DNA of 64,000 bases from Pseudonocardia hydrocarbonoxydans (lineage in GTDB: Bacteria; Actinomycetota; Actinomycetes; Mycobacteriales; Pseudonocardiaceae). Both the position numbers and the translations under genes were made by a program. The stretch lies in the NCBI RefSeq assembly GCF_006539565.1, contig NZ_BJNG01000040.1, positions 1 through 64,000 on the forward strand. The letters run 5' to 3'. Below, in pieces: positions 1 through 64,000 of the stretch (position 1 is the stretch's first letter; each line of letters starts with the position of its first letter). Below the pieces are notes generated by a model that saw only the letters and a program-made list of their open reading frames with translations, had not been told where the DNA came from and made no database searches.

Positions 1-1580
1 CGTCCACCGGCCCCACCCCCGCGGATCCGGCACCACCCGCCACCCGCGGCCCCGCGGACGCCGGCCCGGCGGCCCCCGGCCGTCGACGCACGGCGGGCAC
101 CGACGGGGGGCCGGCGTCCGACGAGGCCCGGCGCATCGACGAGACCCTGTCCCGCCTCACCGCGGCGCACGCCGGGATCACCTTCGCCGAGACCGACGCC
201 GACGCCCCCGTGCCCGCACCCGCTCGGGTCCGGGTGCGACCGGGGGCGGGGCAGGTGCTGCTGGCCGTCCTGGCACTGGCGGTGTTCGCGGTGACCGCGT
301 TCCAGTACGTCGGCAAGGCCCGCCTCGACGCCGCGCTGACCCGGGTGACGGCACTGGACCCCGGCTCCGGCGCCATCGTCGACGCCGAGGCGCAGGCGGG
401 GGCCGAGAACGTGCTCATCGTCGGCACCGATCCGGCCGGTGCGGCCGCGGGCGGCCCGCGCACCGACACCGTGCTGCTCGCGCACGTCCCCGCGGACGGC
501 GACGGCGTCGTGGGCCTGTCGATCCCGCGCGACCTGGAGGTCAACCGGCCGCCGTGCCGGCGCTGGGACCCCACCGCACGCGACTACGTCGACGAGACCG
601 TCCCCGCCCAGGTCCGCACGCCGCTGATGTCGGCGTTCGACGTCGGCGGTCCCCAGTGCGTCACGCGCGTCGTGCAGCAGCTCACCGGCCTGGCCGTCAC
701 CCGCTTCGTCGGGCTGGACCTCGACGGCATCGGCGATCTCGTCGACGCCGTGGGCGGGGTGGAGGTGTGCGTCGAGCAGCCCGTCGTCGACGGCCTGCTC
801 GGCACGGTCGTGCCCCGGCCCGGCGTCACCACGCTGGACGGGCCGACGGCGCGCGACCTGGTGGGCGCCCGCACCGTCGAGGGCGACCCGCCCGGCGGGC
901 GCGGCGTCCTGGAGCGCCAGCAGCGGCTGGTCGCGGCTGTGCTGGAGAAGGTGCTGTCGCGCGAGGTCCTGCTCGACCCCGCCCGGACGGGATCGCTCGG
1001 CCCCGCGCTCGGCGGCGCGCTGAGCGCCGACGCGGCCGACCTCGACCGCATCCTGGCCGCCGCGCGCGCCGTGCGTTCCTTCTCCGCCGACGGCGTCACC
1101 TTCACCGCGGTCCCGACCTCGACCGAGACCAGCAGCCAGGGCAACACCCTGCTCCGGGGCGCCGACGCCGCCGCCCTGTTCACCGCCCTGCGCGAGGGCA
1201 CGCCGCCGCCCGACCAGACCGTCCTCGCCGCGGGGGCCGGTCCCGCGCCCGCCGACGTCACCGTCGACGTCCTCAACGCCTCCGACCGGCAGGGGCTGGC
1301 CGCCGAGATCGGCGGCACGCTCGGGACCCTCGGGTTCGGGGTGGGCGAGATCGGCAACGCCGAGGCGCCCGCGCCCGGCACCGTCATCCGCTTCTCCCCC
1401 GACCGGGCGGCGGCGGCGGAGCTGCTGGCGGCCACCGTGCCGTCCGCCGTGCCGCAGCCCGATCCCTCCGCGAGCGGCGTGCTGCAGCTCGTCCTGGGCA
1501 CCTCCTTCGACGGCGTCGTGCGCGCCCCGTCGACGGCCGCGGCCGCGCCGGCGGCCGGTCCGGCGGCGACCTGTACCTGA
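1..1580 (+). CDS. LCP (LytR-CpsA-Psr) family cell-wall ligase with LytR_C domain, 5' end outside window
   Basis: LCP proteins transfer anionic glycopolymers or arabinogalactan onto peptidoglycan at the outer face of the membrane. The reading frame (third frame) is open from the window edge, so the true start is probably upstream; the first usable internal start is GTG at 210. Order seen: a cytosolic acidic/proline-rich segment, one TM segment (LLAVLALAVFAVTAF), the LCP core (NVLIVGTD, the PRTDTV-type motif, SIPRDLEV), then a C-terminal LytR_C domain (VDVLNASDRQGLAAEI). An LCP gene beside phoU matches the Rv0822c-phoY2 order of M. tuberculosis as I recall it. Family is certain from motifs; the exact glycopolymer is not determinable. 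Confidence 0.88.
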   Translation, partial: STGPTPADPAPPATRGPADAGPAAPGRRRTAGTDGGPASDEARRIDETLSRLTAAHAGITFAETDADAPVPAPARVRVRPGAGQVLLAVLALAVFAVTAFQYVGKARLDAALTRVTALDPGSGAIVDAEAQAGAENVLIVGTDPAGAAAGGPRTDTVLLAHVPADGDGVVGLSIPRDLEVNRPPCRRWDPTARDYVDETVPAQVRTPLMSAFDVGGPQCVTRVVQQLTGLAVTRFVGLDLDGIGDLVDAVGGVEVCVEQPVVDGLLGTVVPRPGVTTLDGPTARDLVGARTVEGDPPGGRGVLERQQRLVAAVLEKVLSREVLLDPARTGSLGPALGGALSADAADLDRILAAARAVRSFSADGVTFTAVPTSTETSSQGNTLLRGADAAALFTALREGTPPPDQTVLAAGAGPAPADVTVDVLNASDRQGLAAEIGGTLGTLGFGVGEIGNAEAPAPGTVIRFSPDRAAAAELLAATVPSAVPQPDPSASGVLQLVLGTSFDGVVRAPSTAAAAPAAGPAATCT

Positions 1581-7162: not shown

Positions 7163-7584
7163 GCAGCGTGCTGTTCGTCTGCGTGCGCAACGGCGGGAAG
7201 TCGCAGATGGCCGAGGGGCTGATGCGGGCCGCGGCGGGTGACGCCGTCGCGGCGTCCTCGGCCGGCACCCGCCCCGGCACGGGGCTCAACGCGCTGTCGG
7301 TCGAGTCCCTGCGCGAGGTCGGCGTCGACATCTCCGGCGGGGTCCCGCGCGCGCTCACCGCCGACCTGGTGGCCGCGGCCGATCTCGTCGTCACCCTCGG
7401 GGCCGAGGCCCACGTCGAGCCGGTCGACGGCACGCCGGTGGAGAACTGGGACACCGACGAGCCGTCGGAGCGCGGGATCGAGGGCCTCGAGCGGATGCGC
7501 CTGGTCCGCGACGACATCGCCGCGCGGGCGGCCGAGCTCGCGGCGCGGCTGACGGCGGATCAGCCGAAGCGACCGGAGACGTAG
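7159..7584 (+). CDS. arsC2: Arsenate-mycothiol transferase-like ArsC (LMW phosphatase fold)
   Basis: 141 residues from GTG 7159, overlapping the upstream stop. The P-loop reads CVRNGGKS: nucleophile Cys8 is kept but the usual Arg is Lys14, and no resolving cysteines are present. This GGKSQMA pattern is what I recall from Corynebacterium ArsC1/ArsC2, which join arsenate to mycothiol for reduction by mycoredoxin; the nearby mshD supplies mycothiol. Its last 25 bp overlap the convergent pstB. Mechanism is inferred from family resemblance. Confidence 0.85.
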
Positions 7585-8339
7585 TCCTCGGTGGCCTTCT
7601 CCCGGGGCTGGGAGAAGATCGTCTTGGTCTCGTCCATCTCCACCAGCTTGCCCGGCTTGCCGGTGCCCTCGATGTTGAAGAACCCGGTGTAGTCGCTCAC
7701 CCGCGCGGCCTGCTGCATGTTGTGGGTGACGATGACGATCGTGTACTCGGTCTTCAGCTCGTTGATCAGGTCCTCGATCGCGAGCGTGGAGATCGGGTCG
7801 AGCGCGGAGCACGGCTCGTCCATCAGCAGGACGTCGGGCTGCACGGCGATGGCCCGGGCGATGCATAGGCGCTGCTGCTGGCCGCCGGAGAGCCCGGCGC
7901 CGGGCTTGTCGAGTCGGTCCTTGACCTCGTTCCACAGGTTGGCCCCGCGCAGCGAACGCTCCACGAGCTCGTCGGTGACCGTCTTGCTGGCCTTCCTGCT
8001 GTTCAGCTTGTAGCCCGCGACCACGTTGTCGTAGATCGACATCGTGGGGAACGGGTTGGGCCGCTGGAACACCATGCCGACCTGACGACGCACGCTCACC
8101 GGGTCGGTCCCCGGCGCGTAGAGGTCGTTGCCGTTGAGCGTCAGCGAGCCCTCGACGTACGCCCCCGGGATCACCTCGTGCATGCGGTTGATCGAGCGCA
8201 GGAAGGTCGACTTCCCGCAGCCGGACGGGCCGATCAGCGCGGTCACCTGCGCCGGCCGGATGGACATGGTGACGCCCTCGACCGCGCGGAAGGCGCCGTA
8301 GTAGATGTTGAGGTCGCGGACCTCGATGCTCTTGGCCAC
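7560..8339 (-). CDS. pstB: Phosphate ABC transporter ATP-binding protein PstB
   Basis: Cytoplasmic ATPase of the high-affinity phosphate importer. 259 residues from GTG 8339, matching the family length near 258. Walker [10 protein letters not shown], signature [14 protein letters not shown], Walker [14 protein letters not shown] and the H-loop [14 protein letters not shown] are all present. Last gene of pstS-pstC-pstA-pstB; its 3' end overlaps the convergent arsC2 by 25 bp. Confidence 0.97.
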
Positions 8340-49223: not shown

Positions 49224-50143
49224 CGGGTCAGGAACCCGGCCAGCAGCTCGGTGGTGGCGTCCGGGCGCTCCTGGTGCGGGAAGTGGCCGACGCCGGGCAG
49301 CAGCTCCGTCCGGAACTCCCCGGCGGCCCACCGCGCCGACCGCACCGCCGTCGACGGCAGCAGGCACGGGTCCAGCTCCCCGTGGATCTGCAGCACCGGC
49401 GCCTCGACCGGCCGGGAGACCGCCGCGGCGTACCGGCGCCCGTCACCGCGGAACTGCGAGCGCAGCGCCCACCGGTAGTACTCCATGGCGCAGTGCGCGA
49501 CCCCGGGCACCGCGATCGCGCCGCGGCAGCGGGCCACGGCGGCGGCGAAGTCGTCCGTCGCCGCCCACCCGGGCCCCGCCCACGCGCGCATGATCGCCCC
49601 GACGCGCGCGCCGTCGTCGCGGCACAGGTCGCGCTCGGGCCGGCGCGGCACCTGGAACGCCAGCGCGTAGCCCGCCGTGGCGCGCCCCTGCCCGCGCAGG
49701 TCGCGCACGAACGCCGACCGCACCGCGAGCGGGTGCGGCGCGGCGACCGCGGTGAGCGTCCGGACCCGGCGCGGGTGCAGCGCGGCGACGGTCCAGCCGA
49801 TGAGGCCGCCCCAGTCGTGCCCGACGACGTGCGCACGGGTCTCCCCCAGCGCGCCGATCAGGCCCGACGCGTCCCCGGCGAGGGTCCACAGGTCGTAGCC
49901 GCGGGGCGGCTTGTCGGTGTCGCCGTAGCCGCGCAGGTCGACCGCGACGGCCCGGAACCCGCGCTCGGCGAGGCCGACGAGCTGGTGTCTCCAGGACCAC
50001 CAGAACTCCGGGAACCCGTGCAGCAGCACGACCAGCGGGCCGTCCCCGCACTCGACGACGTGCTGCCGGATCCCGTTGGCCGAGACCTCCCGGTGCGTCC
50101 ACGGCCCGGGGACGCGCACCGACGACGGATCGGGCGCGCGCAC
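49220..50143 (-). CDS. Epoxide-hydrolase-like alpha/beta hydrolase (EphE-type)
   Basis: 307 residues, GTG start. HGFPEFWWSWRHQL and nucleophile elbow GHDWGGLIGW with Asp instead of Ser, as in epoxide hydrolases and dehalogenases; acid Asp in HGELDPCLLP, His in PGVGHFPHQE. Position next to the holin-family gene resembles ephE (Rv3670). Confidence 0.85.
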   Translation of the reverse strand: MRAPDPSSVRVPGPWTHREVSANGIRQHVVECGDGPLVVLLHGFPEFWWSWRHQLVGLAERGFRAVAVDLRGYGDTDKPPRGYDLWTLAGDASGLIGALGETRAHVVGHDWGGLIGWTVAALHPRRVRTLTAVAAPHPLAVRSAFVRDLRGQGRATAGYALAFQVPRRPERDLCRDDGARVGAIMRAWAGPGWAATDDFAAAVARCRGAIAVPGVAHCAMEYYRWALRSQFRGDGRRYAAAVSRPVEAPVLQIHGELDPCLLPSTAVRSARWAAGEFRTELLPGVGHFPHQERPDATTELLAGFLTR

Positions 50144-50147
50144 GGCG

Positions 50148-50648
50148 TCAGCGGGTGCCGTGGCCGTTCAGCTGCGGGTGCGCCTCGCCGCGGCCGCGCT
50201 GCGACAGCACCTGCGCCGACTCCTTGAGCGAGGAGATCGTGCGCTCGGGCTTGCGGATCCGGCGCACCCGCAGGTAGCCGAGCAGCCCGAACAGGCCCGC
50301 GACGAGGATCATGATGCCGAAGACGATCCAGAACGACGCCGAGCGGTTGAGGAACAGCGCCAGCGTCTCGCCGAGGGCGAAGAACAGGAAGAACAGGCTG
50401 AACAGGGCCACGACCAGCGCGACGATGAAGAAGACGCTGCCCTGCAGGCCCTTCTTCACCTCGGCGGTGACCTCGGACCGGGCGAGCTCGACCTCGGCGC
50501 GCACCAGCGTCGACACCTGCGCGGTGGCCTCGCGGACGAGCCCGCCGATCGACTGTTCCGAGGCCGGGACGACCGGCTCCTTGGAGAGCGGGATCGAGGG
50601 GAGCACGGGCGGAACCTCCGTGCCGCTGGAGCTGGTCGGGCTGGCCAC
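50148..50648 (-). CDS. Phage holin-family (PF07332-type) membrane protein
   Basis: 166 residues from GTG 50648, after AGGAGGACAG. Cytosolic helix (GGLVREATAQVSTLVRAEVELARSEV), two TM helices (SVFFIVALVVALFSLFFLFF, SASFWIVFGIMILVAGLFGLL) and a basic tail. Despite the name it is a conserved actinobacterial protein (Rv3669-like), not a phage gene. Just upstream of the hydrolase. Confidence 0.85.
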   Translation of the reverse strand: MASPTSSSGTEVPPVLPSIPLSKEPVVPASEQSIGGLVREATAQVSTLVRAEVELARSEVTAEVKKGLQGSVFFIVALVVALFSLFFLFFALGETLALFLNRSASFWIVFGIMILVAGLFGLLGYLRVRRIRKPERTISSLKESAQVLSQRGRGEAHPQLNGHGTR

Positions 50649-50751
50649 CACTGTCCTCCTGCACGTGCTGTCTGCGCGTCTCGATGATCGGGAGGCCATC
50701 CTTCCACGGCCCCGGCCCCGGTGCCCGGCCAGGCGCGTCGGATCGACCTGA

Positions 50752-51963
50752 TCAGGGTGGCGGGGCGGGCGTCGCGTGCACCCGCCCGCGCCGGACGAGC
50801 AGCGCCGCGCCGATCAGCGCGGCCGCCGCGGAGGCGATGAGGACGGCCGCCTTGGCGGCGTCGAGGACCTCGGGCTGGTCGACGAGGGACAGCTCCGCGA
50901 TGAGCAGGCTGACGGTGAACCCGACGCCGCCCAGCATCGACACCGCCGCCATGTCGCGCCAGCCCAGCCCGCGCGGGCGGCACGCCGGGGTGATCCGGAT
51001 GGCCAGCCAGGCGAAGCCCAGGATGCCGATGATCTTGCCGACCAGCAGCCCGGCCATGACGGCCAGCGGCACCGGGGTGCTGAACACCTCGCGCAGCGCG
51101 TCGGCCCCGACCGGCACCCCGGCCGCGAACAGCGCGAACACCGGCACGCAGAACCCGGCCGACCACGGCTGCAGCCGGTGCTCCAGGCGCAGGGCGGGCG
51201 CGTACTCCTCGCCGTCGTCGGGGCGGACGCGGGTGAGCAGGCCCAGCAGCACCCCGGCGATCGTGGCGTGGATGCCCGCCTCGTGGATCGCCACCCAGAC
51301 CGCGACGCCCAGTGGCACGTAGATCCACCACGCGCGGACCCGTCGCCGCTGCAGCCACCAGTACAGCGCCGCGCCGAGCAGCCCGGCCCCGAGCGCGAGC
51401 AGGTTCAGGCCCGAGCTGAAGACGAAGGCGATGACGGCGATGGCCCCCAGGTCGTCGGCCACGGCCAGGCCCAGCAGGAACACCCGCGCGGTGACCGGCA
51501 GCGCGGACCCGGCGAGCGCGAGCACCCCCAGCGCGAACGCGATGTCGGTGGCGACGGGGATCGCCCACGCCTGGTCCATCCCCGGCGCCCCCCGCCCGAC
51601 CAGCAGCGCGAGGCAGGCCGGGACGACCATCCCGCCCAGCGCCGCGGCCACCGGGAGCAGCGCCTGGCGCACGCTGGAGAGCTCCCCCACGACCAGCTCG
51701 CGCTTGAGCTCGAGGCCCACCACGAAGAAGAACACCGCGAGCAGCCCGTCGGTGGCCCACTGGGCCAGCGTGAGGTCCAGATGCAGGGACGCGGGGCCCA
51801 CCACGGTGCCGCGCAGCGCGACGTACCCCTCGGCCCACGGCGAGTTCGCCCAGATCAGCGCGACGGCCGTGGCGACCAGCAGCACCACGCCGCCGACGGT
51901 CTCGGTGCGCAGGTAGCGCGCGAACTCGTTGACCGGGGCGACCAGGCGGCGGGGGGCGATCAC
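50752..51963 (-). CDS. nhaA: Na+/H+ antiporter NhaA
   Basis: 403 residues, about 12 TM helices. Marks: LRTETVGGVVLLVATAVALIWANS, ATDIAFALGVLAL with conserved Asp, and LAVADDLGAIAVIA carrying the two Asp of the ion site. Exchanges Na+ for H+. Not in an operon; ATG at 51963. Confidence 0.95.
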   Translation of the reverse strand: MIAPRRLVAPVNEFARYLRTETVGGVVLLVATAVALIWANSPWAEGYVALRGTVVGPASLHLDLTLAQWATDGLLAVFFFVVGLELKRELVVGELSSVRQALLPVAAALGGMVVPACLALLVGRGAPGMDQAWAIPVATDIAFALGVLALAGSALPVTARVFLLGLAVADDLGAIAVIAFVFSSGLNLLALGAGLLGAALYWWLQRRRVRAWWIYVPLGVAVWVAIHEAGIHATIAGVLLGLLTRVRPDDGEEYAPALRLEHRLQPWSAGFCVPVFALFAAGVPVGADALREVFSTPVPLAVMAGLLVGKIIGILGFAWLAIRITPACRPRGLGWRDMAAVSMLGGVGFTVSLLIAELSLVDQPEVLDAAKAAVLIASAAAALIGAALLVRRGRVHATPAPPP

Positions 51964-52079
51964 GGGCGGCTCCGGAGTCGTTCGGGTTCGGCGACGACGT
52001 TGCCGACCAGACTTCCCGGCGCACCTGGACCAGACCCTAACCTGCGGTTCGCGGTTTCGGGGCCCCGAGTTGCGGCCCG

Positions 52080-52487
<408 letters not shown>

Positions 52488-52504
52488 GTGCAGGTCGTCG
52501 TCGA

Positions 52505-54475
<1,971 letters not shown>

Positions 54476-54600
54476 CCGTACACCCTCCTGCTCGTCATCA
54501 CGCCGAGCGTCAGTGCCCGGCGCACGTTCTCGGGTGGACGCTAGCGCCCGGCACCGACCGGCGCACCGGCTGTCCGACCAGTACCCCCCCTACTGGCAGC

Positions 54601-55350
54601 ATGGATCGGGTGATCGCCACCGACCCGCTCGCTCCGCTGACCGAGCTCCCCGGCGTCGCCGAGGCGGTGACGAGGGCCCGCGACGCGGTGGTGGCCGTGC
54701 ACAACCACCCGGCGAACCGGCAGGGCTGGCCCGCCGGCGCCGCGGAGGCCGGGATCCGCGCGGCCCGTGCGTCGGCCGCACTCGACGGCGCGCCGTTCGA
54801 GTCCCCCGACACCGTCACCGACCCGGTGCTCGCGGGCGCCGTGCGGATCGCCGAGGAGTCCGGCCGGCTGCTCGCCGCGTGGCGCACCTCCCCCTCGCAG
54901 GCGCTGGCCCGGCTGCACGTCCTGGCCGCCACCGACCTGGTGCCCGCCGACCGGCACCACGCCGAGCTGGGCCGTCCGCGCAGCGGCCCCGGCGTCACCG
55001 AACGGCTGGCGCTGCTGGCCGGTCTCGTCACCGGTGGCACGCGGGCCCCGGCCCCGGTGCTGGTCGCGGTCGTGCACGGAGAGTTGCTGGCGCTGGCACC
55101 GTTCGGCTCGGCGAGCGGCGTCGTCGCCCGGGCGGCGGCCCGGCTCACCGCGCTGACCGCCGGGCTCGACCCGCGCGGCCTGGCCGTTCCGGAGGTCGGG
55201 CACCTGCGCCGGGCCGCGGAGTACCGCGCGGCCGCGGAGGGCTTCGCCGCGGGGGGCGCCGACGGCGTCGGCGCCTGGGTCCTGCACTGCTGCGCCCAGT
55301 GGGAGGCCGGCGCGAACGAGGGCCTCTCGATCGCGGACGCCCGGGTCTGA
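54601..55350 (+). CDS. Conserved actinobacterial protein (Rv3662c-like, Fic-like helical fold)
   Basis: 249 residues, all-helical in appearance, with AVVAVHNHPANRQGWPAGAAEAGIR and AVRIAEESGRLLAAWRTSP. Resembles the Fic-like family members near Rv3661 but has no HxFx(D/E)GNGR motif, so AMP transfer is unlikely. Function unknown. Divergent from acs with a 125-bp gap. Confidence 0.7.
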   Translation: MDRVIATDPLAPLTELPGVAEAVTRARDAVVAVHNHPANRQGWPAGAAEAGIRAARASAALDGAPFESPDTVTDPVLAGAVRIAEESGRLLAAWRTSPSQALARLHVLAATDLVPADRHHAELGRPRSGPGVTERLALLAGLVTGGTRAPAPVLVAVVHGELLALAPFGSASGVVARAAARLTALTAGLDPRGLAVPEVGHLRRAAEYRAAAEGFAAGGADGVGAWVLHCCAQWEAGANEGLSIADARV

Positions 55351-55695
55351 GCCACCCGCACCGGCGACCACCTGCGGGAACGCGAGACGGGCGGCACCCC
55401 TCCCGGGGTACCGCCCGCCCACGCGCGACGAACCGGGGGTCCAGGCGTGCACTACGTGTCGTGAGGGTGGCCTCGGCGTCCGGCGTCCCGGTACGCAGGC
55501 CCACGACGACATGCCTCCCGCGGCGTGCTGTGCGTGGAGTGCCCGCTTCCTCGCGCACGGAGCCCTGGTCGGGGGAGACGGGTGCTTCTCCACCGCACCG
55601 CCCCTGGCCTCCCAGAAGTCCGTACCCCATGAGTACCCGGTGGTGCCGGTCACAGCAAGGGTCAGGCGCCGGTGCACCGGTTCAGCGACGGTGCG
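55351..55695. other. 345-bp intergenic stretch between convergent genes
   Basis: No convincing gene. It starts with a 12-bp hairpin (55389-55416) and then GC-rich sequence without a credible ORF on either strand. No known riboswitch or RNA core was recognised. Confidence 0.5.
55389..55416. terminator. Hairpin between convergent genes
   Basis: GGGCGGCACCCC pairs with GGGGTACCGCCC (one mismatch) around a TCCC loop. Likely a bidirectional terminator. Confidence 0.6.
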
Positions 55696-56511
55696 TCACG
55701 AACGGCGACTGCGATACCCCATCCAGCCCGCCCCGATCAGCGCCGCCATCCCCACCCCGCCGATCGCCGCGGCCACCGGGACCGGGGGGCGGAAGCGCAC
55801 GCCGAGCGCGACGGGCGCGGTGAAAGTGAGGATCGGCCAACCGCGTTCGAGGGCCACGCGCCGCAGCGCCTTGTCCGGGTTGACGACGGTGGGGTGGCCG
55901 ACCGCCTCGAGCAGCGGCAGGTCGGTGATCGAGTCGGAGTAGGCCCGGCAGTCGGCGAGCCGGTAGCCGCGGGCGGTGGCGATGTCGCGGGCGGCGCGCG
56001 CCTTCTCCTCGCCGTAGCAGTAGTACTCGATCTCCCCGGTGTACCGCCCGTCGACGACGCCCATCCGGGTGGCCAGGCAGCGGTCGGCGCCCACCAGCGC
56101 GGCGATCGGCTCGACGACCTCCTGCCCCGACGCGGAGAGCACCACGATCTCCTCGCCTGCGGCCCGGTGCTCGGCGATCAGCTCGGTGGCCTCGGCGTAG
56201 ACCAGCGGCTCGACGATCTCGTGCAGCGTCTCCGCGACGATCGCGCTCACCTGCGCGACGTCCCATCCCGTGCAGAGCTCGGTGATCCGGCGGCGCAGGT
56301 GCTCCATCGTCCCGGCGTCGGCGCCGGAGAGCACGAGCAGCAGCTGGGCGTACCCGCTGCGCAGCACGGCCCGCCTGCTGATCAGCCCGCGGCGACGGAA
56401 CGGCCTGCTGAAGGCGAGCGCGCTGGACCCCGCGATGATCGTCTTGTCGAGGTCGAAGAAGGCGGCGGCGGTCGGCCGCTCCGGGAGCGGGATCGGCGGC
56501 GGACCGGGCAT
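55696..56511 (-). CDS. HAD-superfamily phosphatase (SerB-like, Rv3661 type)
   Basis: 271 residues from ATG 56511; an open frame extends upstream through a non-coding region. HAD motif I FFDLDKTII (Asp nucleophile), motif II VVLSASGQEV, and motif III/IV CRAYSDSITDLPLLEAVGHP. A C-terminal TM segment (VPVAAAIGGVGMAALIGAGW) anchors it. Phosphoserine-type phosphatase fold; substrate unknown. Divergent from the Ssd gene and the 6C RNA. Confidence 0.88.
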   Translation of the reverse strand: MPGPPPIPLPERPTAAAFFDLDKTIIAGSSALAFSRPFRRRGLISRRAVLRSGYAQLLLVLSGADAGTMEHLRRRITELCTGWDVAQVSAIVAETLHEIVEPLVYAEATELIAEHRAAGEEIVVLSASGQEVVEPIAALVGADRCLATRMGVVDGRYTGEIEYYCYGEEKARAARDIATARGYRLADCRAYSDSITDLPLLEAVGHPTVVNPDKALRRVALERGWPILTFTAPVALGVRFRPPVPVAAAIGGVGMAALIGAGWMGYRSRRS

Positions 56512-56638
56512 GTCGAGCGAGCTTGCCAGACCGTGCCGGGGCCGCCGGTGGCACGGGGGTCGGGCTCCGGCGAAAACTCGTGGCGGATGCTCCGTCCAGG
56601 GGTGCGCGTACCGCCTGGTCACCGGCTACAGTTGACGT

Positions 56639-56731
56639 CGTCCGGATACGTCCGGACGTGGTTCAGCTCGACCCCCCGGAGCTGAACCGACGACGACCCC
56701 CGCCAATCCCCCCTGGCGGGGGTCGTCCCGT
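56639..56731 (+). ncRNA. 6C small RNA
   Basis: Two hairpins with exactly six C in each loop: stem GGTTCAGCTC/GAGCTGAACC (56660-56669, 56679-56688) with loop GACCCCCCG, then a perfect 14-bp stem (56692-56705 with 56714-56727) with loop ATCCCCCC. A small 5' hairpin (56639-56658) precedes. TACAGT at 56627-56632 is a -10 giving a start near 56639 and about 93 nt. This is the actinobacterial 6C RNA (called B11 in M. tuberculosis), whose location between the HAD and Ssd genes is the same. It pairs C-rich loops with G-rich mRNA sites. Confidence 0.92.
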
Positions 56732-56922
56732 GTCCGGGCGCTCCCCGTCCCAGGGTGCCGCTCCACCCCGACGCGCCGGTGTCGCGAATCGGCCGAACGC
56801 CCGGGGTTGTCCACATCGGTCCCCCGCCGTCCACAGGAATTCGGCTCGTCGCCGCGGAGGCCGTCTCCCGGGTGAGGCTGGTCCCGTCCCGCACCGGGTG
56901 GGACGGGACCAGGGAGGCCGTG

Positions 56923-58005
56923 ATGCACCGTTCCCGGCGGGGACTCGTGATGGTGTCCGACCCCGAGCTGCTCGACGCCGTGCTGCGGCTCGCCGCCGCG
57001 GCGGGGTGCGAGCTCGACCGCGCCGTCGACGCCACGGCGGCGCGGCGGATGTGGGCCCGGGCGCCGGTGGTGCTGCTCGACGCGGACGCCGCGGCCCACT
57101 GCGCCCGGGGCGGGTTGCCGCGGCGCGGACGGGTCGTCGTCGCGGTCCGCGGGGAGCCGCCGCCCGGGGTGTGGCAGCAGGCCGTCGCGATCGGGGCCGA
57201 GCACGTGGTGTCGCTGCCCGACGCCGAGCCGTGGCTCGTCGCGGCGCTGTCGGAGACCACCGAGGAACCCCGCGGGCGGGGGCCCGTCCTCGGCGTGGTC
57301 GGGGGCCGGGGCGGGGCCGGCGCGTCGGTACTGGCCGCCGCGGTCGCCGTGGCCGCGGTGCGCGACGGGGGGCGGGCGCTGCTGGTCGACTGCGATCCGC
57401 TCGGCGGAGGTCTCGACCTGGTGCTCGGCGCCGAGGACCTCGACGGCCTGCGCTGGCCCGGGGTCGGCGTCGGCGGGGGCCGGGTCCCCGCCGCCGCCCT
57501 GCACGCCGCACTGCCGGCACCCGCGGTCCGCGGCCGGGGCGAGCTGGCCCTGCTCTCGTGCGACCGGGCCGCCGACGGGCCGGGGGCGGCCGCGGTCTCG
57601 GCGGTGATCGACGCGGGGCGCCGGGCGGGCGAGACCGTCGTGTGCGACCTGCCGCGACACCCCACCGACGCCGCCGCCGCGGCACTGGCCGCGGCCGACC
57701 TGGTGGTGCTGGTCGTCCCCGCCGACGTGCGGTCCTGTGCGGCCGCGGCCCGCGTCGTCGCGGCACTGGCCGGGCACGGGTCCGTACCGCGGCTGGTCGT
57801 CCGCGGCCCCGCCCCGGGCGGGATCGACGCCACCGAGGTCGCGCGGGCGCTCGGGCTGTCGCTGCTCACCACGATGCGGCCCGAACCGGGACTGGCCCGC
57901 GCGCTGGAGCGCGGCGCGGCCCCGGGCCGGGCCCGCGGGCCGCTGGCCGCGGCCGCCCGCGCGGTGCTGGCCGAGCTGGGCACGACCGCGGGGGCCGGGT
58001 CGTGA
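56923..58005 (+). CDS. ssd: Septum-site-determining protein Ssd (CpaE/MinD-like)
   Basis: 360 residues from ATG 56923 after AGGGAGG. N-terminal receiver-like part (MVSDPELLDAVLRL) then a MinD/CpaE ATPase-like domain with a deviant Walker A (GVVGGRGGAGASVLAAAV) and LLVDCDPLGGGLDLVLG. In mycobacteria Ssd (Rv3660c) affects septation; in tad loci the CpaE protein places the pilus machine. Overlaps the TadA gene by 4 bp. Confidence 0.88.
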   Translation: MHRSRRGLVMVSDPELLDAVLRLAAAAGCELDRAVDATAARRMWARAPVVLLDADAAAHCARGGLPRRGRVVVAVRGEPPPGVWQQAVAIGAEHVVSLPDAEPWLVAALSETTEEPRGRGPVLGVVGGRGGAGASVLAAAVAVAAVRDGGRALLVDCDPLGGGLDLVLGAEDLDGLRWPGVGVGGGRVPAAALHAALPAPAVRGRGELALLSCDRAADGPGAAAVSAVIDAGRRAGETVVCDLPRHPTDAAAAALAAADLVVLVVPADVRSCAAAARVVAALAGHGSVPRLVVRGPAPGGIDATEVARALGLSLLTTMRPEPGLARALERGAAPGRARGPLAAAARAVLAELGTTAGAGS

Positions 58006-58676
58006 GCGGGCGGGTGCTCGTCGACCGCGTGCGCTCCCGGCTCGCCGCCACCGGCGACGGCACCGGCGTGGCGGCCGTCGCGGCCGCGGTGCGGGCCGAG
58101 TCCGGCGGCGTCGCCTCCGATCTCGACGTGCTCGACGCCCTGCGCGTACTGCGGGAGGAGTTCGTCGGCGCGGGCCCGCTCGACGCGCTGCTGCGCGACC
58201 CCCGCACCACCGACGTGCTGGTGGGCCACGGAGGCCGGGTGTGGGTCGACCGCGGCACCGGACCCGAGCCCTCGTCGGTGCGGCTGCCCGACGAGGCCGC
58301 GGTCCGCAGGCTCGCCCAGCGGCTCGCGCTCGCCGCGGGCAGGCGGCTCGACGACGCCTCGCCCTACGTCGACGGGTGGCTCGCCGACGCCGGTGTCCGG
58401 CTGCACGCGGTGCTGCCGCCCGTCTCCCCCGACGGCACCTGCCTCTCGCTGCGCGTCCTGCAGCCCGCCGTGCACGATCTGGCCGCGCTGCGCCGCACCG
58501 GCACCCTCGACGCGGGGGGCGAGGCGCTGCTGCGGGCCGTGCTCACCGCGCGGCTGGCGCTGCTGGTCTCCGGGGGCACCGGCACGGGGAAGACCACGAT
58601 CCTGGGCGCGTTGCTCAGCGCGGTCGACCCGCGGGAGCGCATCATCTGCGTCGAGGACGCGACGCACACATATTAG
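58002..58676 (+). pseudogene. TadA/CpaF-type secretion ATPase, truncated by the inserted island
   Basis: 224 residues from GTG 58002. N-terminal helical domain (LDVLDALRVLREEFVGAGPLDAL) and Walker A (VSGGTGTGKTTILGALL) are intact, but the reading ends after CVEDATHTY. Intact TadA continues after VEDA with a further ~150-170 residues holding Walker B and the His box. The break falls near 58660, at the drop in GC. Cannot hydrolyse ATP normally; the tad/Flp pilus locus is probably inactive. The 3' part is not in the window. Confidence 0.85.
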
Positions 58677-58718
58677 CACGCACTCGCCAATGCAACGCAC
58701 TCCTCGGTATCCTTCGAT

Positions 58719-59315
58719 GTGCCCATCCACACGGTGACGCGACCTCGCCAGACGAGCGACTCCGACGAGAGATACACGGCGCGCCTTGGCCTAATCGGCG
58801 CTATCGCCGCTGTCGTACTCTCAGGCTTCATAGCGTATGCCGCCGGAGCGCAACAATCAGATGTCGACTACAAGCGTGAACGTCGCGATACAGCGTACGT
58901 CGAACTACTCAATGCTCACGACTCACTGTTCCGCATCGAGCAAGACATTGCTAAATTCGACGAGCCTACTCCTGGATACTTTCAGGCTGTCGAACAACTC
59001 AATGCGGCAACCGAAGAATACAGCACTGCGTCCAACTCGGTCGTTGTTATCGAATCGGACGGCGTCGGCCAGATTCGCAACGAGCTCGATGCGTGCCATA
59101 CCACGTTTCGAAACTTCGCCACCGACGGTACGTTTGGTGAACTATTTACCGGCGATTTGTGTGTTCCGGGCCAGACCGAACTGACAGCCACAGGTGACGG
59201 CATAATTTTCGAGACAGCTTCAACCGGCGCTGTAACGGTTAAGGACTTCTTGCCTGACATCTACAGACTCGGCGTAAAGTTGGCAGAAGCCATGCGTTCG
59301 GACATAAACGGCTGA
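58719..59315 (+). CDS. TM-anchored helical protein of unknown function
   Basis: 198 residues, GTG start. One TM helix (LIGAIAAVVLSGFIAYAAGA), then helices (DYKRERRDTAYVELLNAHDSLFRIEQ) and a C-terminal mixed region with Cys (ACHTTFRN, GDLCVPGQTE). Convergent with the Shedu gene, 20 bp apart. A decayed relative at 61129-61558 shares the 17-base stretch at the TM codons. Function unknown; may go with the defence gene. Confidence 0.6.
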   Translation: MPIHTVTRPRQTSDSDERYTARLGLIGAIAAVVLSGFIAYAAGAQQSDVDYKRERRDTAYVELLNAHDSLFRIEQDIAKFDEPTPGYFQAVEQLNAATEEYSTASNSVVVIESDGVGQIRNELDACHTTFRNFATDGTFGELFTGDLCVPGQTELTATGDGIIFETASTGAVTVKDFLPDIYRLGVKLAEAMRSDING

Positions 59316-59335
59316 CGAGCCGCTCGATCACGAAC

Positions 59336-60538
59336 CTAATCCTCGACGATGAACCGGGCACGCTCATAGAGCTCGTCGTACGTAATCACCTCCGTATCTG
59401 CGAGGGCAGTTCGAAACAGTTCGAAGCTTTCCATCATCTCGCCATTCGGGCCGCTCTCGGTATCGAACTCTTGCAGCTTTCCGATTACCACAACCTGACG
59501 CGGGCGAGACCCACTCACGCTAAGTCCGGTCGGCGCACCATCAGCACCGATAATGCTGTGCATCTGCGTGCCGATATGGCGAAGTGCCTTACGAGTTGTT
59601 TTCTGCACCTGCGCGACGCCCCCAACTAGCTCGTAACTGGGCGCAAAGGTGCTCGGCTTCCGGTACGGGTTCTTCGCTAGCAGTTCAGCATCGTGCCTCT
59701 TGATCTCACAGAAGAGAAGAGTGTTCACATAGCCACGCGTCCGCATCAGCGCATCTATACGATTACCTGCGCCAAGAAAAACGCTCTTGCCTGCGGTTGC
59801 CCTTTCGAGCTTCCCGTCGTCCATTCCATCCGTTGCAATTAGGTTCAGGCCATACCCGAAAATCCAGCGGTTGCGCTCAAAGAAGTTCTGCCAGACGCCT
59901 TCAGGCTTCTCCCTAGTCCGCTCCCTGTGTGCTGCAAAGTAAGCAGCATCATTAAGTAATCTCTCAAACTCGGCGAGTTCCTGCTTTCTGTTTGCAATTA
60001 GCGAGATGTCCTTGTCGGTAAGGTTGCTCCCGAGGGCGGTGCGGATAGCTTCGAGAACTTGGGCTTTATCCTCAGACTGCAGCAGCTCGATCAGCTTGAC
60101 TGCATCGTCCGGCACCACGCTGAATCCGCCCTCAGGTATGACAATACCGCGGACGCCCTGTACGAACGTGATGAGTTTCCACAAGTTCTTGTGAGCATCG
60201 GTCGCGTCGACCGCGCCCTTAACGGTTAGCGGCGCATCATGATCGTTCAACTCAAGCGCAGTCTGGCCCAACTTGGTCTTGTCCTTCAGCCAGAACTTGA
60301 ACCGTGGCGAGCATCCGTCAGGCTTCTTCACCAAGGTGACTGTCACCATGACTGCCGTTCGAGGCTTATCCATCAAGATAAAATGCTTGACTAAGGATCT
60401 GCCGTGAGTGCGTTTAGTGTCATAGAAGTAGTTGATACTTGCCTCAGCGACTCGGATCTGGAGATCCGACAAATCCTCGGACTCGACGTCAAACTCCACA
60501 TTCGGACTGAAGAGACTTGTTGGAGCTTTTATAGCCAT
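59336..60538 (-). CDS. sduA: Shedu (DUF4263) anti-phage defence nuclease
   Basis: 400 residues from ATG 60538, chosen because AGGGGG lies upstream; GTG at 60571 is also open. The C-terminal half is the DUF4263 PD-(D/E)xK nuclease: NRWIFGYGL, then RIDALMRTRG (Asp262) and FCEIKRHDAELL (Glu278, Lys280). The N-terminal half (TAVMVTVTLVKKPDG, LWKLITFVQGVRGI) is the less conserved sensory part. Shedu proteins restrict phage as single-gene systems by nicking DNA. Lower GC than the host and set in the island. Confidence 0.88.
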   Translation of the reverse strand: MAIKAPTSLFSPNVEFDVESEDLSDLQIRVAEASINYFYDTKRTHGRSLVKHFILMDKPRTAVMVTVTLVKKPDGCSPRFKFWLKDKTKLGQTALELNDHDAPLTVKGAVDATDAHKNLWKLITFVQGVRGIVIPEGGFSVVPDDAVKLIELLQSEDKAQVLEAIRTALGSNLTDKDISLIANRKQELAEFERLLNDAAYFAAHRERTREKPEGVWQNFFERNRWIFGYGLNLIATDGMDDGKLERATAGKSVFLGAGNRIDALMRTRGYVNTLLFCEIKRHDAELLAKNPYRKPSTFAPSYELVGGVAQVQKTTRKALRHIGTQMHSIIGADGAPTGLSVSGSRPRQVVVIGKLQEFDTESGPNGEMMESFELFRTALADTEVITYDELYERARFIVED

Positions 60539-60779
60539 GTCAGCAACCCCCTGCTCAGCAAGCAACACCAACTTGCCTTCGCTCAGCGTGGCTCTACCGT
60601 TACTTTCCGTCTGCGTACTTGTAGGACTCGACTATGACTCGCCGCCGCTCGGCCTGACAGACCTTCCGGACGGGCTACGCACCGCGCTGGCGTGCGGGCT
60701 TGATCCGAGACTTGGCTACTGCACGGAGCGCATCCACATGTGTGTGCAGACGGCTCTGCGAAGCATCGGCCCCGCGCTA
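60539..60779. other. Shedu upstream region, no gene seen
   Basis: Low-complexity-free but AT-richer than the host; no credible ORF. Promoter for the Shedu gene must lie here, but no clear -10/-35 pair was found. Confidence 0.4.
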
Positions 60780-60944
60780 TCAGTACCTCGCTAGCGGCTC
60801 GACGAGCGCGACCGCCTCAGCGTCGGCCGTGTTTAACGGTGTACCCGTGGTGACGTGGTCGCGGTACCTGGCTGCTAGACCGCGGTCCCACCCGGACAGG
60901 AGCCCGCATACTGCGACTTCCAGGTCCGTCAGCATCCGGCCCAT
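60780..60944 (-). CDS. Small hypothetical protein (54 aa)
   Basis: ATG start at 60944. Reads MGRMLTDLEVAVCGLLSGWDR then GLAARYRDHVTTGTPLNTAD and ends AEAVALVEPLARY. The reading is natural-looking (helical, mixed charge) and uses normal codons, but the ribosome site is weak. Alternative start ATG at 60935. Function unknown; low-to-moderate confidence. Confidence 0.4.
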   Translation of the reverse strand: MGRMLTDLEVAVCGLLSGWDRGLAARYRDHVTTGTPLNTADAEAVALVEPLARY

Positions 60945-61128
60945 CCCGCACCAGTCGCCGGTCGTCTCTTGCCGCCCGGGAGATCGAGCAGGGGCGTCCT
61001 AGTGCCTCTGCACGCATCGCAGACCGGCCGGACCCGTTCGAAGCTCGTAGCGGGCCCGTGACCGTGAGCAGATGGTCAGGCGCAACCTCCCCAAGTGCCC
61101 GGCCGCTGGGCGTCGATAACCTCGATCG

Positions 61129-61558
61129 ATGCAGCTCGTCGCAACGGCCCCCGCCCCGGCTCCTGGCCCCGCCATCCTTACACCGACAGCCGCTCTAATC
61201 GGCGCTATCGCAGTAGTGCTCGTTGGTTTCGGCGCAGCGGAACTGGCTAAAGCAGCATAGAGAAAGTATCTATGCAGTAGTTCAGGGCGGCCTAGACGCC
61301 TCCGTACTTGAAGTTATTCTCTTGGTTGCACCACCGGAGGTCGGAACGAAGTCAGTCGCTCTAATGCAGAAGGTAGTCTTGCTGGAACAAGCCGTATTCT
61401 CGCATGAGGATGATACAGCGACTGAGCGTCTACACGACGAGTTGGCTCAGATTAACCAGAACTTGCGAACAATGATGCGGGCCGACATCAGTGTTGCAAC
61501 AGTTAACGAACAAGGGTCGGGGCAGGAGCGACGGCTTCCCGTGCCCGGTCGTACGTAG
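61129..61558 (+). pseudogene. Frameshifted TM-anchored protein
   Basis: A first ORF (61129-61260) encodes a TM segment (AALIGAIAVVLVGFGAAELA) and stops at TAG; dropping one base (T at 61258) joins it in frame with ORF 61223-61558, giving AARESIYAVVQGGLDA. The combined 143-residue protein (TM helix then helical domain) matches the architecture of the protein at 58719-59315, sharing CTAATCGGCGCTATCGC. Either a pseudogene, a sequencing error or a +1 recoding site. Confidence 0.5.
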
Positions 61559-61607
61559 TCCACGGCTGCATTCCTAGCAAAGTATCGAGTACGCGACTGA
61601 TTCTCAA

Positions 61608-62189
61608 TCATGCCCCGGGACCCCTCACGACCTGGAACGTGTGACTATCAGACTGGGCTTGCTCGTTGGTGTCATCCATTCTGGCGTCCGCAACTACCCT
61701 GTAGTCTCCTACAGGTAGATAAAGCAAAACCTTAGCATTGCAGCCAGTCGTTCCGGCGCCTTCGGGGGCAATTTCTCCGGTAGCCACCGAGACTATCCGG
61801 TAGCTGACAGTGCACGGCCTCGGGCCATCGGTGGTTAGGCCGGTGATCCGTATTCTCAGCCCAGCTTTCGGCGTCCCGCTACTAACAATAGTGGTTTCGA
61901 ATACGTCGTTCTGAATCTCATTGCGCGCAAAACCTTCGGAGGTCTCAACTTGTAGCTCTAGAAACCTTGGAGCCTCCGAGGTTTCGGGAGGTGGATCTGT
62001 CGCGGCAGTCGTAGCATTTGCTTCGGCCGACGGAATCGATGCCGGCGGCGTCGCATAGGTTGGGGGTGACCCGGGTGATGAGCCTCCACGTACGTCATTT
62101 GCAAAGGCCAAGAGTGCCACTACTAACGCCGCAATGGTGGAGTACGCGACGATGCGGGCTAGGCGGGGTCCCACGCCGTCATCTGCCAT
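61608..62189 (-). CDS. TM-anchored extracytoplasmic protein, hypothetical
   Basis: 193 residues: TM helix (IVAYSTIAALVVALLAFA), then a Pro/Thr/Ser-rich linker (SPPTYATPPASIPSAEANA) and a beta-rich domain (FETTIVSSGTPKAGLRIRIT, YRVVADARMDDTNEQ). Looks like an Ig-like or beta-sandwich surface domain. No family recognised. Sits in the island. Confidence 0.6.
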   Translation of the reverse strand: MADDGVGPRLARIVAYSTIAALVVALLAFANDVRGGSSPGSPPTYATPPASIPSAEANATTAATDPPPETSEAPRFLELQVETSEGFARNEIQNDVFETTIVSSGTPKAGLRIRITGLTTDGPRPCTVSYRIVSVATGEIAPEGAGTTGCNAKVLLYLPVGDYRVVADARMDDTNEQAQSDSHTFQVVRGPGA

Positions 62190-62421
62190 AGACGAACTCT
62201 ATCGGGCGACGCCCTTAGGTGCACACCTACCGAAGCGACCCGTTCATCGTCCCGGCCGCAGCTCTTAGCTCACGCCCGACGACGGCCGGAAGGTCCACGC
62301 GACGAGTGCGGCACCGGGCGGAGCCGCGTTGCCCACCCCCGGTGCGGTGTCGTCCCGGCACTGCTCCCCGCATCGCGAACGGATCGACGGGGCCTTGTCA
62401 CGGAGCCATCGAGTACCGGGG
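62190..62421. other. Intergenic stretch, no gene seen
   Basis: 232 bp, GC-rich again, with a short open reading in both strands but no credible start or conserved look. Confidence 0.35.
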
Positions 62422-62733
62422 TCATCGGACACCGGGGATCCGATCGGACCGCGTCAGCATCCCGTCCGCGGTGAGGACGTAGAAGCCCAGCCGGTCGACC
62501 CTGGCGCGGTCGTCCGTACTCAGCACCGCGTGGATCTCGTATCCGTGGACCAGGACGTCCCGACCGGCTGCAAGCTCGTCGAGACGGTCCAGGCCATAGG
62601 CACGGCGGAAGACGGGATCGACTCTCCCGTCCCGTGCGCTAAGGCGTGCCTCTAGGTAACGGAGTCGGTCTCGAAGGTGGTCGCGTAGTTCGCTGCGAGC
62701 CTCTGGGCTACGAACCTTTCTAGACATCGCCAT
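62422..62733 (-). CDS. Hypothetical protein, downstream of terminase small subunit
   Basis: 103 residues from ATG 62733 (second ATG at 62727). Reads MSRKVRSPEARSELRDHLRD then a helical region and ends with LGFYVLTADGMLTRSDRIPG. Overlaps the terminase stop by 14 bp, so probably the same operon. AAGGGGC ribosome site upstream. No family recognised. Confidence 0.5.
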   Translation of the reverse strand: MAMSRKVRSPEARSELRDHLRDRLRYLEARLSARDGRVDPVFRRAYGLDRLDELAAGRDVLVHGYEIHAVLSTDDRARVDRLGFYVLTADGMLTRSDRIPGVR

Positions 62734-63148
62734 TTGTGAGCCCCTTCGCCCTATCCCAGCGAGCCCGCGCGGCTTTACGGCCCGACTCGGATCGACTCAT
62801 CGGCCCGTCGGTAATGACGGTCGTTGTCACGGTCTCGACGGAGTCGTGGAACTTAATCTTGCCGAGCAGGCCGGCTAGGGCCTGCTCTTGGTATCTACGC
62901 TCAGAGATCAGAGGATGGATTACGAGATTCTTCTGACTTCCGAGCACCGTAAGCGGTTGTCCTGCGATGCCTTCGGTCAACTTGTCGATCTGATCTCGGA
63001 TACGGCACGCGGCGTGAAGCACTTCGAGTTCGTCGCGGCGCAGTTCGTAGTCGTCGGTGATCGAGTTCCATAGCTCGATCCCGGATTTGCCGAGATCGTC
63101 CGGGGCGGAGGCGTCCCGCTTAGCGTCAGTGAGTGTGTCGGTGGTCAT
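62720..63148 (-). CDS. P27-like phage terminase small subunit
   Basis: 142 residues from ATG 63148, after AAAGGCAAC. Marks: GIELWNSITDDYELRRDELE, LHAACRIRDQIDKL and HPLISERRYQEQALAGLLGK, the helical core of P27-family TerS that binds DNA at packaging sites, then a basic C-terminal tail (SESGRKAARARWDRAKG). A terminase large subunit would be expected further on but is not seen downstream; the gene may act alone as in phage satellites. Confidence 0.7.
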   Translation of the reverse strand: MTTDTLTDAKRDASAPDDLGKSGIELWNSITDDYELRRDELEVLHAACRIRDQIDKLTEGIAGQPLTVLGSQKNLVIHPLISERRYQEQALAGLLGKIKFHDSVETVTTTVITDGPMSRSESGRKAARARWDRAKGLTNGDV

Positions 63149-63274
63149 TAGTTGCCTTTCTGCAATTTCTATTGTGGGTCTGCGTCGTACCCGAAGCCTG
63201 ATCCGGATTACGGGGCGATCAGGGAGCCCCGGGGAGGGGTAACCTCCCCTGGGGGTCACGGCCTAAGCGGCTGG
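63149..63274. other. Terminase promoter region
   Basis: 126 bp upstream of the terminase-like gene. No strong -10/-35 pair was recognised. The AAAGG ribosome site lies at the gene end of it. Confidence 0.3.
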
Positions 63275-63469
63275 CTAAGCCATGCCCGGAATTGATCCGA
63301 CATCCCTAGCGGATTCGCTTATCGCTGCGCTTAGCTCGTACGCGTTGCCGGTCCGGTTGTGCTCGATGTCGGGCGGGCCGTGCACGTCCTGATCGAGCGG
63401 TGCTCGTGGCCGTGCCGTGCCTCCGGCCTCGGTCGCGTTAGTGAGCCTGGCCGTGCTCGTTCCCGTCAC
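63275..63469 (-). CDS. Possible small ORF (64 aa)
   Basis: GTG start 63469, reading MTGTSTARLTNATEAGGTAR then RPRAPLDQDVHGPPDIEHNR and ending AYELSAAISESARDVGSIPG. Natural-looking but no good ribosome site, and the frame is open upstream. No family recognised; low confidence. Confidence 0.35.
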   Translation of the reverse strand: MTGTSTARLTNATEAGGTARPRAPLDQDVHGPPDIEHNRTGNAYELSAAISESARDVGSIPGMA

Positions 63470-63721
63470 TCGACGAGCTACACCGCCGCCTGGTCGTGAT
63501 GCCGGTACGCGCGTGCTCGGTGCGGGTCGGTGTCGACCAGGCCGCGATGCAGGGCCGTACGTGGCTCTGCGATGCCCATTGCGCTTCCCCGGGTAGCACC
63601 GTGCAGGGCCGCGGACGGCTTCCCGGTGTGTTTGCCTAGGGGCGGCTAGCGCGGGCCTGAGATTCGCGACCCGGGGCGGTTATCGAGCCGGGATCGCGTA
63701 CGGCAGAGCCACCCTTACCGC

Positions 63722-63814
63722 GTGGCTGAGCTTGCTTTCCATCTCGTCGGTGTCGCGTTACAGATCGGCGGTGCAGCGCTCACTGTCGTCGGCGCCCATC
63801 TAGGGATCAACTAG
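63722..63814 (+). CDS. Possible 30-residue hydrophobic peptide
   Basis: GTG 63722 to TAG 63814: VAELAFHLVGVALQIGGAA then TVVGAHLGIN. Single TM-like helix of small-holin or toxin-peptide type, but too short to trust. Ends next to the stop of the partial gene on the other strand. Confidence 0.22.
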   Translation: MAELAFHLVGVALQIGGAALTVVGAHLGIN

Positions 63815-64000
63815 TCACCCCGACGCGAAATCTGGCGAGTCTGTCACCGCAGGTTCCGGGAACGTAAGGTTTCGAATCGCCGGGAAAAGGTTGAGAAATG
63901 AATCCTCGATCTCGGCCGTTGCGGGTTTGTTGTCCGTCGTCTGCCACGAAACCTTCGTAGTCATCTTGTTCTTGTCAGTTGTCGCCACCCACACCGCCGG
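63815..64000 (-). CDS. 3' part of an unknown gene cut by the right edge
   Basis: Minus-strand reading frame with TGA at 63815-63817, open to the window edge (62 codons). Ends ...SFLNLFPAIRNLTFPEPAVTD and carries VWVATTDKNKMTTKVSW before it. Coding is clear from the even composition; function unknown, start beyond 64000. Confidence 0.6.
   Translation of the reverse strand, partial: PAVWVATTDKNKMTTKVSWQTTDNKPATAEIEDSFLNLFPAIRNLTFPEPAVTDSPDFASG

Follow-up and report, generated by a model that had tools for sequence, protein, structure and literature searches.

Phage-inducible chromosomal islands (PICIs), such as SaPI and EcCI, are described in the available text of PMC6092414 (Fillol-Salom et al. 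2018) as satellites of around 15 kb with a specific attachment (att) site and an integrase at one end, a small terminase subunit (TerS) without the large subunit (TerL), no phage structural or lytic genes, and an origin 3' of rep in which two sets of iterons flank an AT-rich region. Tyrosine integrases are typical of satellite integration, according to the accessible portion of PMC10690885. In actinobacteria, capsid-less satellites are hard to see: a Mycobacterium survey defined its candidates by a capsid gene (PMC10654092, as far as its available text goes), and a survey of actinobacterial prophages assumed many elements below 15 kb to be possible satellites, with experimental validation lagging (PMC10023795, likewise in its available text). 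Here we describe an element of the soil actinobacterium Pseudonocardia hydrocarbonoxydans, whose genome assembly comprises 5.29 Mb in 89 contigs. The window, i.e. the whole stretch of DNA analysed, is the first 64,000 nucleotides of contig C40 (C40:1-64000), which itself continues to position 69,902. The element has borders with a shared att core, a serine integrase, TerS as its only recognised packaging or structural gene, an array of iterons and a Shedu defence gene. From this anatomy and from its kin we infer that it is probably a PICI-like, TerS-type phage satellite of 12.8 kb with a serine integrase, residing in the tadA gene of its host.

The left edge of the element lies inside a host gene of pilus secretion, encoding a tadA/cpaF-type ATPase, of which the 3' remainder is found on contig C74 (3,128 bp). 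The two parts account for the only matches to PF00437 above cut-off in the whole genome (C40:58167-58664 and C74:1212-1562), and joining the flanks at the identical 12-bp core yields a single TadA frame without interruption. The empty site is represented in genome G229, in which both flanks align to one intact gene and overlap by 12 bp (L134 1872-1883). Within the genus, 60 genomes were searched, and in 53 of them tadA runs across the site without a break; the other seven are the present genome, split by the element, G082 with two overlapping frames, three genomes with distant paralogues only and two without a match. The G+C content drops from 0.75-0.83 to about 0.55 across the left edge, and is 0.61 in the C40 part of the element, while the windows on its left, 50000-58499, have 0.67-0.83. 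No tRNA gene was found as att target in the window and onward to the end of C40. Beside attR, a large serine recombinase runs off the end of C74, with the tadA remainder following it on that contig. The integrase pieces end both contigs and align to adjoining residues of homologues (451/451 in L056 and 463/463 in L057), and therefore C40 and C74 appear to abut closely, with little sequence lost. As assembled from the two contigs, with the junction between them unread, the element measures 12,828 bp.

Fifteen element proteins, i.e. those of 14 genes and the C-terminal integrase piece, were scanned against PHROGs and Pfam, with the N-terminal integrase piece, a 55-aa open reading frame (ORF) and a 107-aa ORF standing outside these scans. 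The fifteen gave no match to families of capsid, portal, large terminase or tail, the weak scaffold matches of the g11 protein being the sole head-related signal. When the whole genome was searched in six frames with PF03354, phrog_2, PF05065 and PF04860, C40 and C74 gave nothing; since PF03354, phrog_2 and PF04860 fail to detect some TerL and portal families, the direct protein scans are the stronger negative. The first-pass annotation, made on the window, had proposed a phage satellite with Shedu and small ORFs but no capsid, portal or large terminase, to be abandoned if a complete structural module lay to the right or if no integrase existed. The sequence supports this proposal. Both Shedu and the small ORFs of the ORF list are present, and the right side, now read to attR on C74, contains no such module, the contig junction inside the integrase gene excepted. 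It does contain the integrase, and the att core sought at the two edges was found at both. The start given as 58661 was about right, the true left edge being just outside it, in the core.

The TerS protein matches phrog_1496, 'terminase small subunit', at E 5.6e-20. The earlier description of it as P27-like holds for TerS but hardly for P27, since the protein reaches 15.4 bits with Pfam Terminase_4 (PF05119), where the cut-off is 24.7. In the AlphaFold model, the predicted local distance difference test (pLDDT) exceeds 90 at residues 51-130, and the conserved core spans residues about 51-172; confidence is low over the first 50, so that the true start may be internal. The predicted fold gives five matches at E <0.001 in a viral structure library, all named terminase small subunit (best 7.4e-5); in the PDB there is none at E <0.001, the HK97 small terminase being at rank 5 with E 1.4 and probability 0.44.

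Directly 3' of g9, the gene for a candidate initiator, five copies of a palindromic iteron are packed into 330 bp and a sixth, weaker one lies elsewhere, against 0.01 matches expected by chance (L002). Two copies, an AT-rich stretch and three further copies follow one another, and the AT-rich stretch is among the three lowest-G+C 40-bp spots in the C40 part of the element. This is the arrangement of a PICI origin, which makes it a candidate origin by layout only. All five copies and the weaker sixth came from a pattern search; a strict palindrome scan recovered three of the five and a relaxed scan four. Neither PHROGs nor Pfam gives a match to g9 itself, and a g9 alignment found no match in viral contigs. 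Within the family, 6 of 390 genomes, its own included, encode proteins resembling g9, and a homologue stands at most about 2.3 kb from TerS in loci L057, L059 and L116 and about 7.7 kb from it in L117. The iterons also have counterparts. In L057, three copies lie directly 3' of the g9 homologue, an A+T-rich stretch separating the first two from the third, and in L117 palindromes lie about 0.5 kb 3' of it. Three copies in L060 are directly 3' of a gene for a 158-aa protein, which is winged-helix by eye only, lacks a PHROG match and reaches E 0.036 with the g9 profile in a 28-protein set. In JSForest1 (L104), a phage record introduced below, four copies lie within the gene for its O-like initiator. 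The L057 and L060 arrays were recovered by repeat and pattern searches, the relaxed palindrome scan listing neither. That scan also picked up clusters of three copies elsewhere, three of them across the 58 kb of host DNA and one or two in L070, L117, L119 and L064; a lone three-copy cluster is thus weak evidence.

Two small ORFs accompany g9. Between g9 and g10, the ORF at L002 8126-8449 (C40 66126-66449) resembles the proline-rich N-terminal half of g9 (61.5% over 39 aa) and is, by its sequence, a partial duplication of g9. The 55-aa ORF (L002 7953-8117) overlaps the g9 start and has matches in two elements of the same genus, at L060 6324-6509 and L063 5937-6110 (47.6% over 42 aa and 30.9% over 55 aa); the L063 counterpart adjoins the integrase.

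A survey of 297 genomes of the family found TerS homologues in 26, its own included, and sequence of up to 20 kb was fetched around 21 of the 25 other loci (20 compared together, plus L116), with four not fetched. Among the 20, nine have an HK97 capsid match and L073 has TerL and portal, while ten have no match to PF05065, PF03354, phrog_2 or PF04860. L058 has a TerL (phrog_9) and a portal (phrog_104) that escape these models, and for this reason profiles for TerL, portal and capsid were built locally from L058, L064 and L065. Searched with these, the ten capsid-less loci gave no match; the profiles are narrow, since they also fail to detect the TerL of L073 and L075. The ten loci encode 70 proteins of at least 240 aa; 62 of these, and four such proteins from L116, were scanned against PHROGs (66 in all), and the 25 families listed, out of 46 matched, include none of head or terminase. 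Of the eight proteins left out, three were scanned separately and five are unscanned. Serine integrases occur in six of the ten (L056, L057, L059, L063, L069 and L070). Furthermore, L116, from another genus, and L117, from the same genus, each combine a serine integrase, TerS, a g9 homologue, a clear mini-scaffold and a g10-like protein.

Relatives were also sought among phages. As a single query, TerS found no relatives in viral contigs, whereas its alignment as query found 23 loci in viral contigs and five in genome contigs. Among 50,697 phage records searched at the protein level with TerS, 139 matched, including twelve 'phage' records of ~11 kb from Mycolicibacterium aichiense (OR387110-OR387121). 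JSForest1 (OR387115) is a linear record of 11,037 bp with terS 318 bp from its start; its annotation includes TerS, a serine integrase and an O-like initiator, which matches replication initiation families, and no large terminase or portal. Judged by the annotation of JSForest1, the one that was read, the M. aichiense records look like satellites. If they were deposited from particles, as their soil source implies, elements with TerS and a serine integrase are indeed packaged. We found no publication on these records, nor one describing the present element, in the open-licence PMC literature.

Tape-measure genes were seen at L117 4443-7016, L131 7009-9279 (by similarity to that of L117), L070 4275-7631 and L071 12497-17119. 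In L070 and L071, PF05065 has no capsid match; for L117 and L131, the capsid check was limited to the narrow local profile. Control of tail length would be uncommon in a satellite.

A possible capsid-size function centres on g11 and g10. The first two PHROG matches of g11 are both scaffold families (phrog_233, E 0.034; phrog_3760, E 0.05). With a profile of eight scaffolds chosen without g11, it reaches E 0.0072 in 14,428 ORFs and scores 17.0 bits, versus 10.0 for the best of 20,000 shuffles. Clear mini-scaffolds are encoded in L116 (116 aa) and L117 (88 aa), matching phrog_233, head scaffolding, at 2e-11 and 6.5e-7, while the scaffolds of phage loci are about 165-300 aa, the eight used for the profile matching PHROGs scaffold families. 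The g10-like family is clear in L056, L059, L060, L063, L068, L116 and L117 and weak in L069. Its members were found in five of the ten capsid-less loci versus none of the ten others (Fisher p 0.033, with L063 having been a profile seed and the loci not being independent draws). When the order was searched without TerS as bait, 8 of 397 genomes matched. Among the six newly found loci, TerS is near in L130 and L133 and not in L128, L129, L131 and L132, and to treat the family as a pure marker of TerS islands is therefore too simple; a primase-like protein is encoded in three of the six loci, an O-like initiator in one. The candidates of the present element for mini-scaffold and g10-like protein fit weakly. 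It is conceivable, and in our view rather doubtful, that these loci represent a distinct actinobacterial satellite lineage with a kit of serine integrase, TerS, winged-helix initiator and iterons, mini-scaffold and g10-like protein, of which the last two would be a hitherto unseen CpmA/CpmB-like means of capsid redirection.

The position of g10 raises another explanation, namely that the element forms its own capsid, as a capsid-forming PICI (cfPICI) or a phiRv1-like element, from a divergent and unrecognised gene, with g10 as the capsid protein. It follows a scaffold-like gene, the usual order ahead of a capsid gene, and both JSForest1 and the Mycobacterium candidates have capsid genes. No major capsid protein was found in the element among the scanned proteins, though; g10 has no capsid match in PHROGs or Pfam, nor do the g10-like proteins of L059, L063 and L117, and the proteins of this family appear all-helical by eye, unlike the HK97 fold. 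We regard a capsid-forming element as very improbable.

Several observations weigh against the satellite assignment. The contig junction inside the integrase gene is unread, and the integrase belongs to the serine class. No conserved cos or pac was found in the stretch upstream of terS, and no AlpA or Stl homologue among the element proteins. A primase, which the first-pass annotation had advised looking for, had no match among the scanned element proteins, the candidate initiator being the winged-helix g9. The exact 11-mer GTCGAGGACGC occurs in one of the five relatives' sites examined, and the target sequence thus varies. In L059, the repeats are not clearly above chance (four matches, reached by 7 of 200 shuffles), and its two copies are about 900 bp from its g9. 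The scaffold fit of g11 settles at about E 0.003-0.007 once members recruited by g11 are removed; an earlier E of 4.2e-5 was partly circular, since the profile included L091 and L101, recruited by a g11-containing model, and a profile of three prophage scaffolds alone does not list g11. With profiles built without it, g10 reaches E 0.0066-0.013 in 14,428 ORFs (0.0042 in 9,133), and hhalign places it first of 157 non-members with a probability of only 10.7%; on these values we rejected g10 as a proven member of the g10-like family. L117 also has head protease, head closure and tape-measure genes, and JSForest1 is annotated with its own capsid, adaptor, stopper and tape measure, so that the kin are not all TerS-only. 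Lastly, no 17-mer is common to the element and either C26:28001-68000 or C39:82001-100985, a TerL end.

The former of these two stretches covers a resident prophage of the same genome (C26:32182-50339) with integrase, capsid, portal and TerL matches. With no 17-mer in common with the prophage stretch or the C39 end, neither was assigned as helper, and three element matches of 17-18 bp on C25 were judged to be chance. A weak serine-recombinase match lies at about 54.9-56.5 kb on C26. In the congener G122, which carries the TerS element L060, the prophage L118 and that element are a possible helper-satellite pair.

Alternatively, the element might be a prophage remnant, a phage decayed to integrase, early genes and terS, which gained Shedu and is immobile. 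Deletion could leave a lone terS and a shortened scaffold, and a g9-like gene also lies in the early region of the L118 prophage (7482-8039), which has TerL, portal and a weak capsid match. Decay is at odds with the 12-bp core, identical at both ends, with the open frames of TerS, Shedu and g9 and with the intact iteron array. Moreover, integrase, TerS and g9 homologues recur together in elements of another species and of another genus, which is not expected of random decay. A remnant seems unlikely to us.

From attL, the gene order is g1, Shedu, g3, g4, g5, TerS, a stretch with no convincing gene, an Mrr-like nuclease and the iterons, followed by g9, g10, g11, g12, g13, g14, the serine integrase and attR; genes g4 through integrase share one strand (Table 1). 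Shedu is identified by PF14082 SduA_C (95.5 bits, cut-off 27), by PADLOC SduA (E 5.4e-131) and by the Shedu structure 8ti8 (E 1.6e-8). Its SduA C-terminal nuclease domain contains an E-x-K motif, EIK, aligned to the EIK of 8ti8, which we take to be the catalytic motif. The g8 protein scores 22.5 bits with PF04471 (cut-off 21). A small gene like g5 adjoins terS also in L062 and L117. The g12 protein matches a phage repressor family only at E 0.011 and has homologues in L063, L060 and L117.

Table 1. Positions of the element's features and of the interrupted host gene (window positions are those of C40)
Feature	Position	Strand	Basis
tadA/cpaF (T2SSE) ATPase, 5' part, cut by element	58001..58660, start approximate	+	PF00437
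attL core CGTCGAGGACGC	58649..58660		12 bp, identical to attR core
g1, 198 aa, cargo	58719..59315	+	no family match (PHROGs, Pfam, PADLOC scans)
Shedu SduA defence nuclease	59336..60571	-	PF14082, PADLOC, PDB 8ti8
g3, 111 aa, cargo	61223..61558	+	no family match (PHROGs, Pfam, PADLOC scans)
g4, 193 aa, cargo	61608..62189	-	no family match (PHROGs, Pfam, PADLOC scans)
g5, 103 aa, adjoins terS	62422..62733	-	ORF list
TerS, terminase small subunit	62720..63259	-	phrog_1496
Candidate packaging site, upstream of terS; also holds a 64-aa ORF	63260..63814		inference
g8, 331 aa, Mrr_cat-like nuclease	63815..64810 on C40 (window holds 3' part to 64000)	-	PF04471
Iterons, 5x TACCCGGCA-N5-TGCCGGGTA palindrome	C40:64878-65204		pattern search
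g9, 274 aa, winged-helix (by eye), candidate initiator	C40:65181-66005	-	homologues elsewhere
g10, 346 aa	C40:66311-67351	-	weak fit to g10-like family
g11, 67 aa, possible mini-scaffold	C40:67361-67564	-	weak scaffold-profile match
g12, 105 aa, helix-turn-helix candidate repressor	C40:67561-67878	-	phrog_2328
g13, 324 aa	C40:67967-68941	-	no family match (PHROGs, Pfam, PADLOC scans)
g14, 88 aa, phage protein	C40:69248-69514	-	phrog_4421 (function unknown), E 2.2e-9
Serine integrase, C-terminal piece	C40:69515-69902	-	alignment to homologues
Serine integrase, N-terminal piece, 434 aa	C74:1826-3127	+	alignment to homologues
attR core CGTCGAGGACGC	C74:1543-1554	+ (strand of position)	12 bp, identical to attL core
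tadA, 3' part	C74 about 1041-1554	-	PF00437

With Shedu and an Mrr-like nuclease aboard and its helper not known, the element could also be viewed as a genomic or defence island with a serine integrase that moves on its own or by conjugation, in which TerS is a passenger or a DNA-binding regulator. Against this stand the absence of any relaxase or conjugation family among the Pfam matches of the 15 scanned proteins, the candidate origin of PICI type, and the position of TerS as the most widely common element protein across the 20 compared loci, themselves chosen by TerS. We consider such an island extremely unlikely.

If the element is indeed a satellite, the helix-turn-helix protein g12 would hold it dormant until infection by a helper phage or induction of one, whereupon the serine integrase would excise it, restoring tadA. 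Binding of g9 to the palindromic iterons just 3' of its gene would then let replication start at the AT-rich stretch. The element TerS may displace or supplement the helper TerS and thereby steer the helper large terminase to element DNA. The mini-scaffold g11, possibly together with g10, might compete with the helper scaffold for capsid protein and give small capsids, like SaPI1 CpmB; this capsid-size step is the least certain of the mechanism. Shedu and the Mrr-like protein would be cargo guarding host and satellite from other phages. With precise att sites, a candidate origin, TerS and a candidate capsid-size gene, the element offers a bounded and testable case, in which Shedu is seen on a PICI-like element of this sort. 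The profiles for TerS, g9, mini-scaffold and g10-like proteins can be used to find more of them in Pseudonocardiaceae and relatives.

Compared with the PICIs (SaPI/EcCI) as described in the available text of PMC6092414, the element is alike in its size near 15 kb, its specific att site with the integrase at one end, the presence of terS without TerL, the absence of recognised structural or lytic genes, the two iteron sets round an AT-rich stretch 3' of the candidate initiator, and the defence cargo. It differs in that the integrase is of the serine rather than the usual tyrosine type, no primase and no recognisable stl or alpA were found among its scanned proteins, the att site lies in a protein gene, and the host is an actinobacterium. 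The Mycobacterium candidate PICIs, including phiRv1/phiRv2 (PMC10654092, available text), are likewise actinobacterial and prophage-like, one of them being shown with a serine integrase, but were chosen by a major capsid gene, which was not found here. The Streptomyces satellites Mulch and Flayer are also actinobacterial, and are helper-dependent; unlike the present element, they have both terminase subunits, portal, capsid and scaffold, with a tyrosine integrase in one and none in the other, according to the accessible portion of PMC10690885. JSForest1 shares TerS, a serine integrase and an initiator with palindromic iterons, and is distinguished by the capsid, adaptor, stopper and tape measure of its own; the 11 further records were seen as search matches. 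Finally, SaPI1 CpmB has 72 residues and carries the C-terminal capsid-binding motif of the helper scaffold (PMC5644958, available text). Although its scaffold family is different and the likeness rests on size and profile match, g11, with 67 aa and a weak match to the C-terminal part of scaffold profiles, may by analogy be a counterpart of CpmB.

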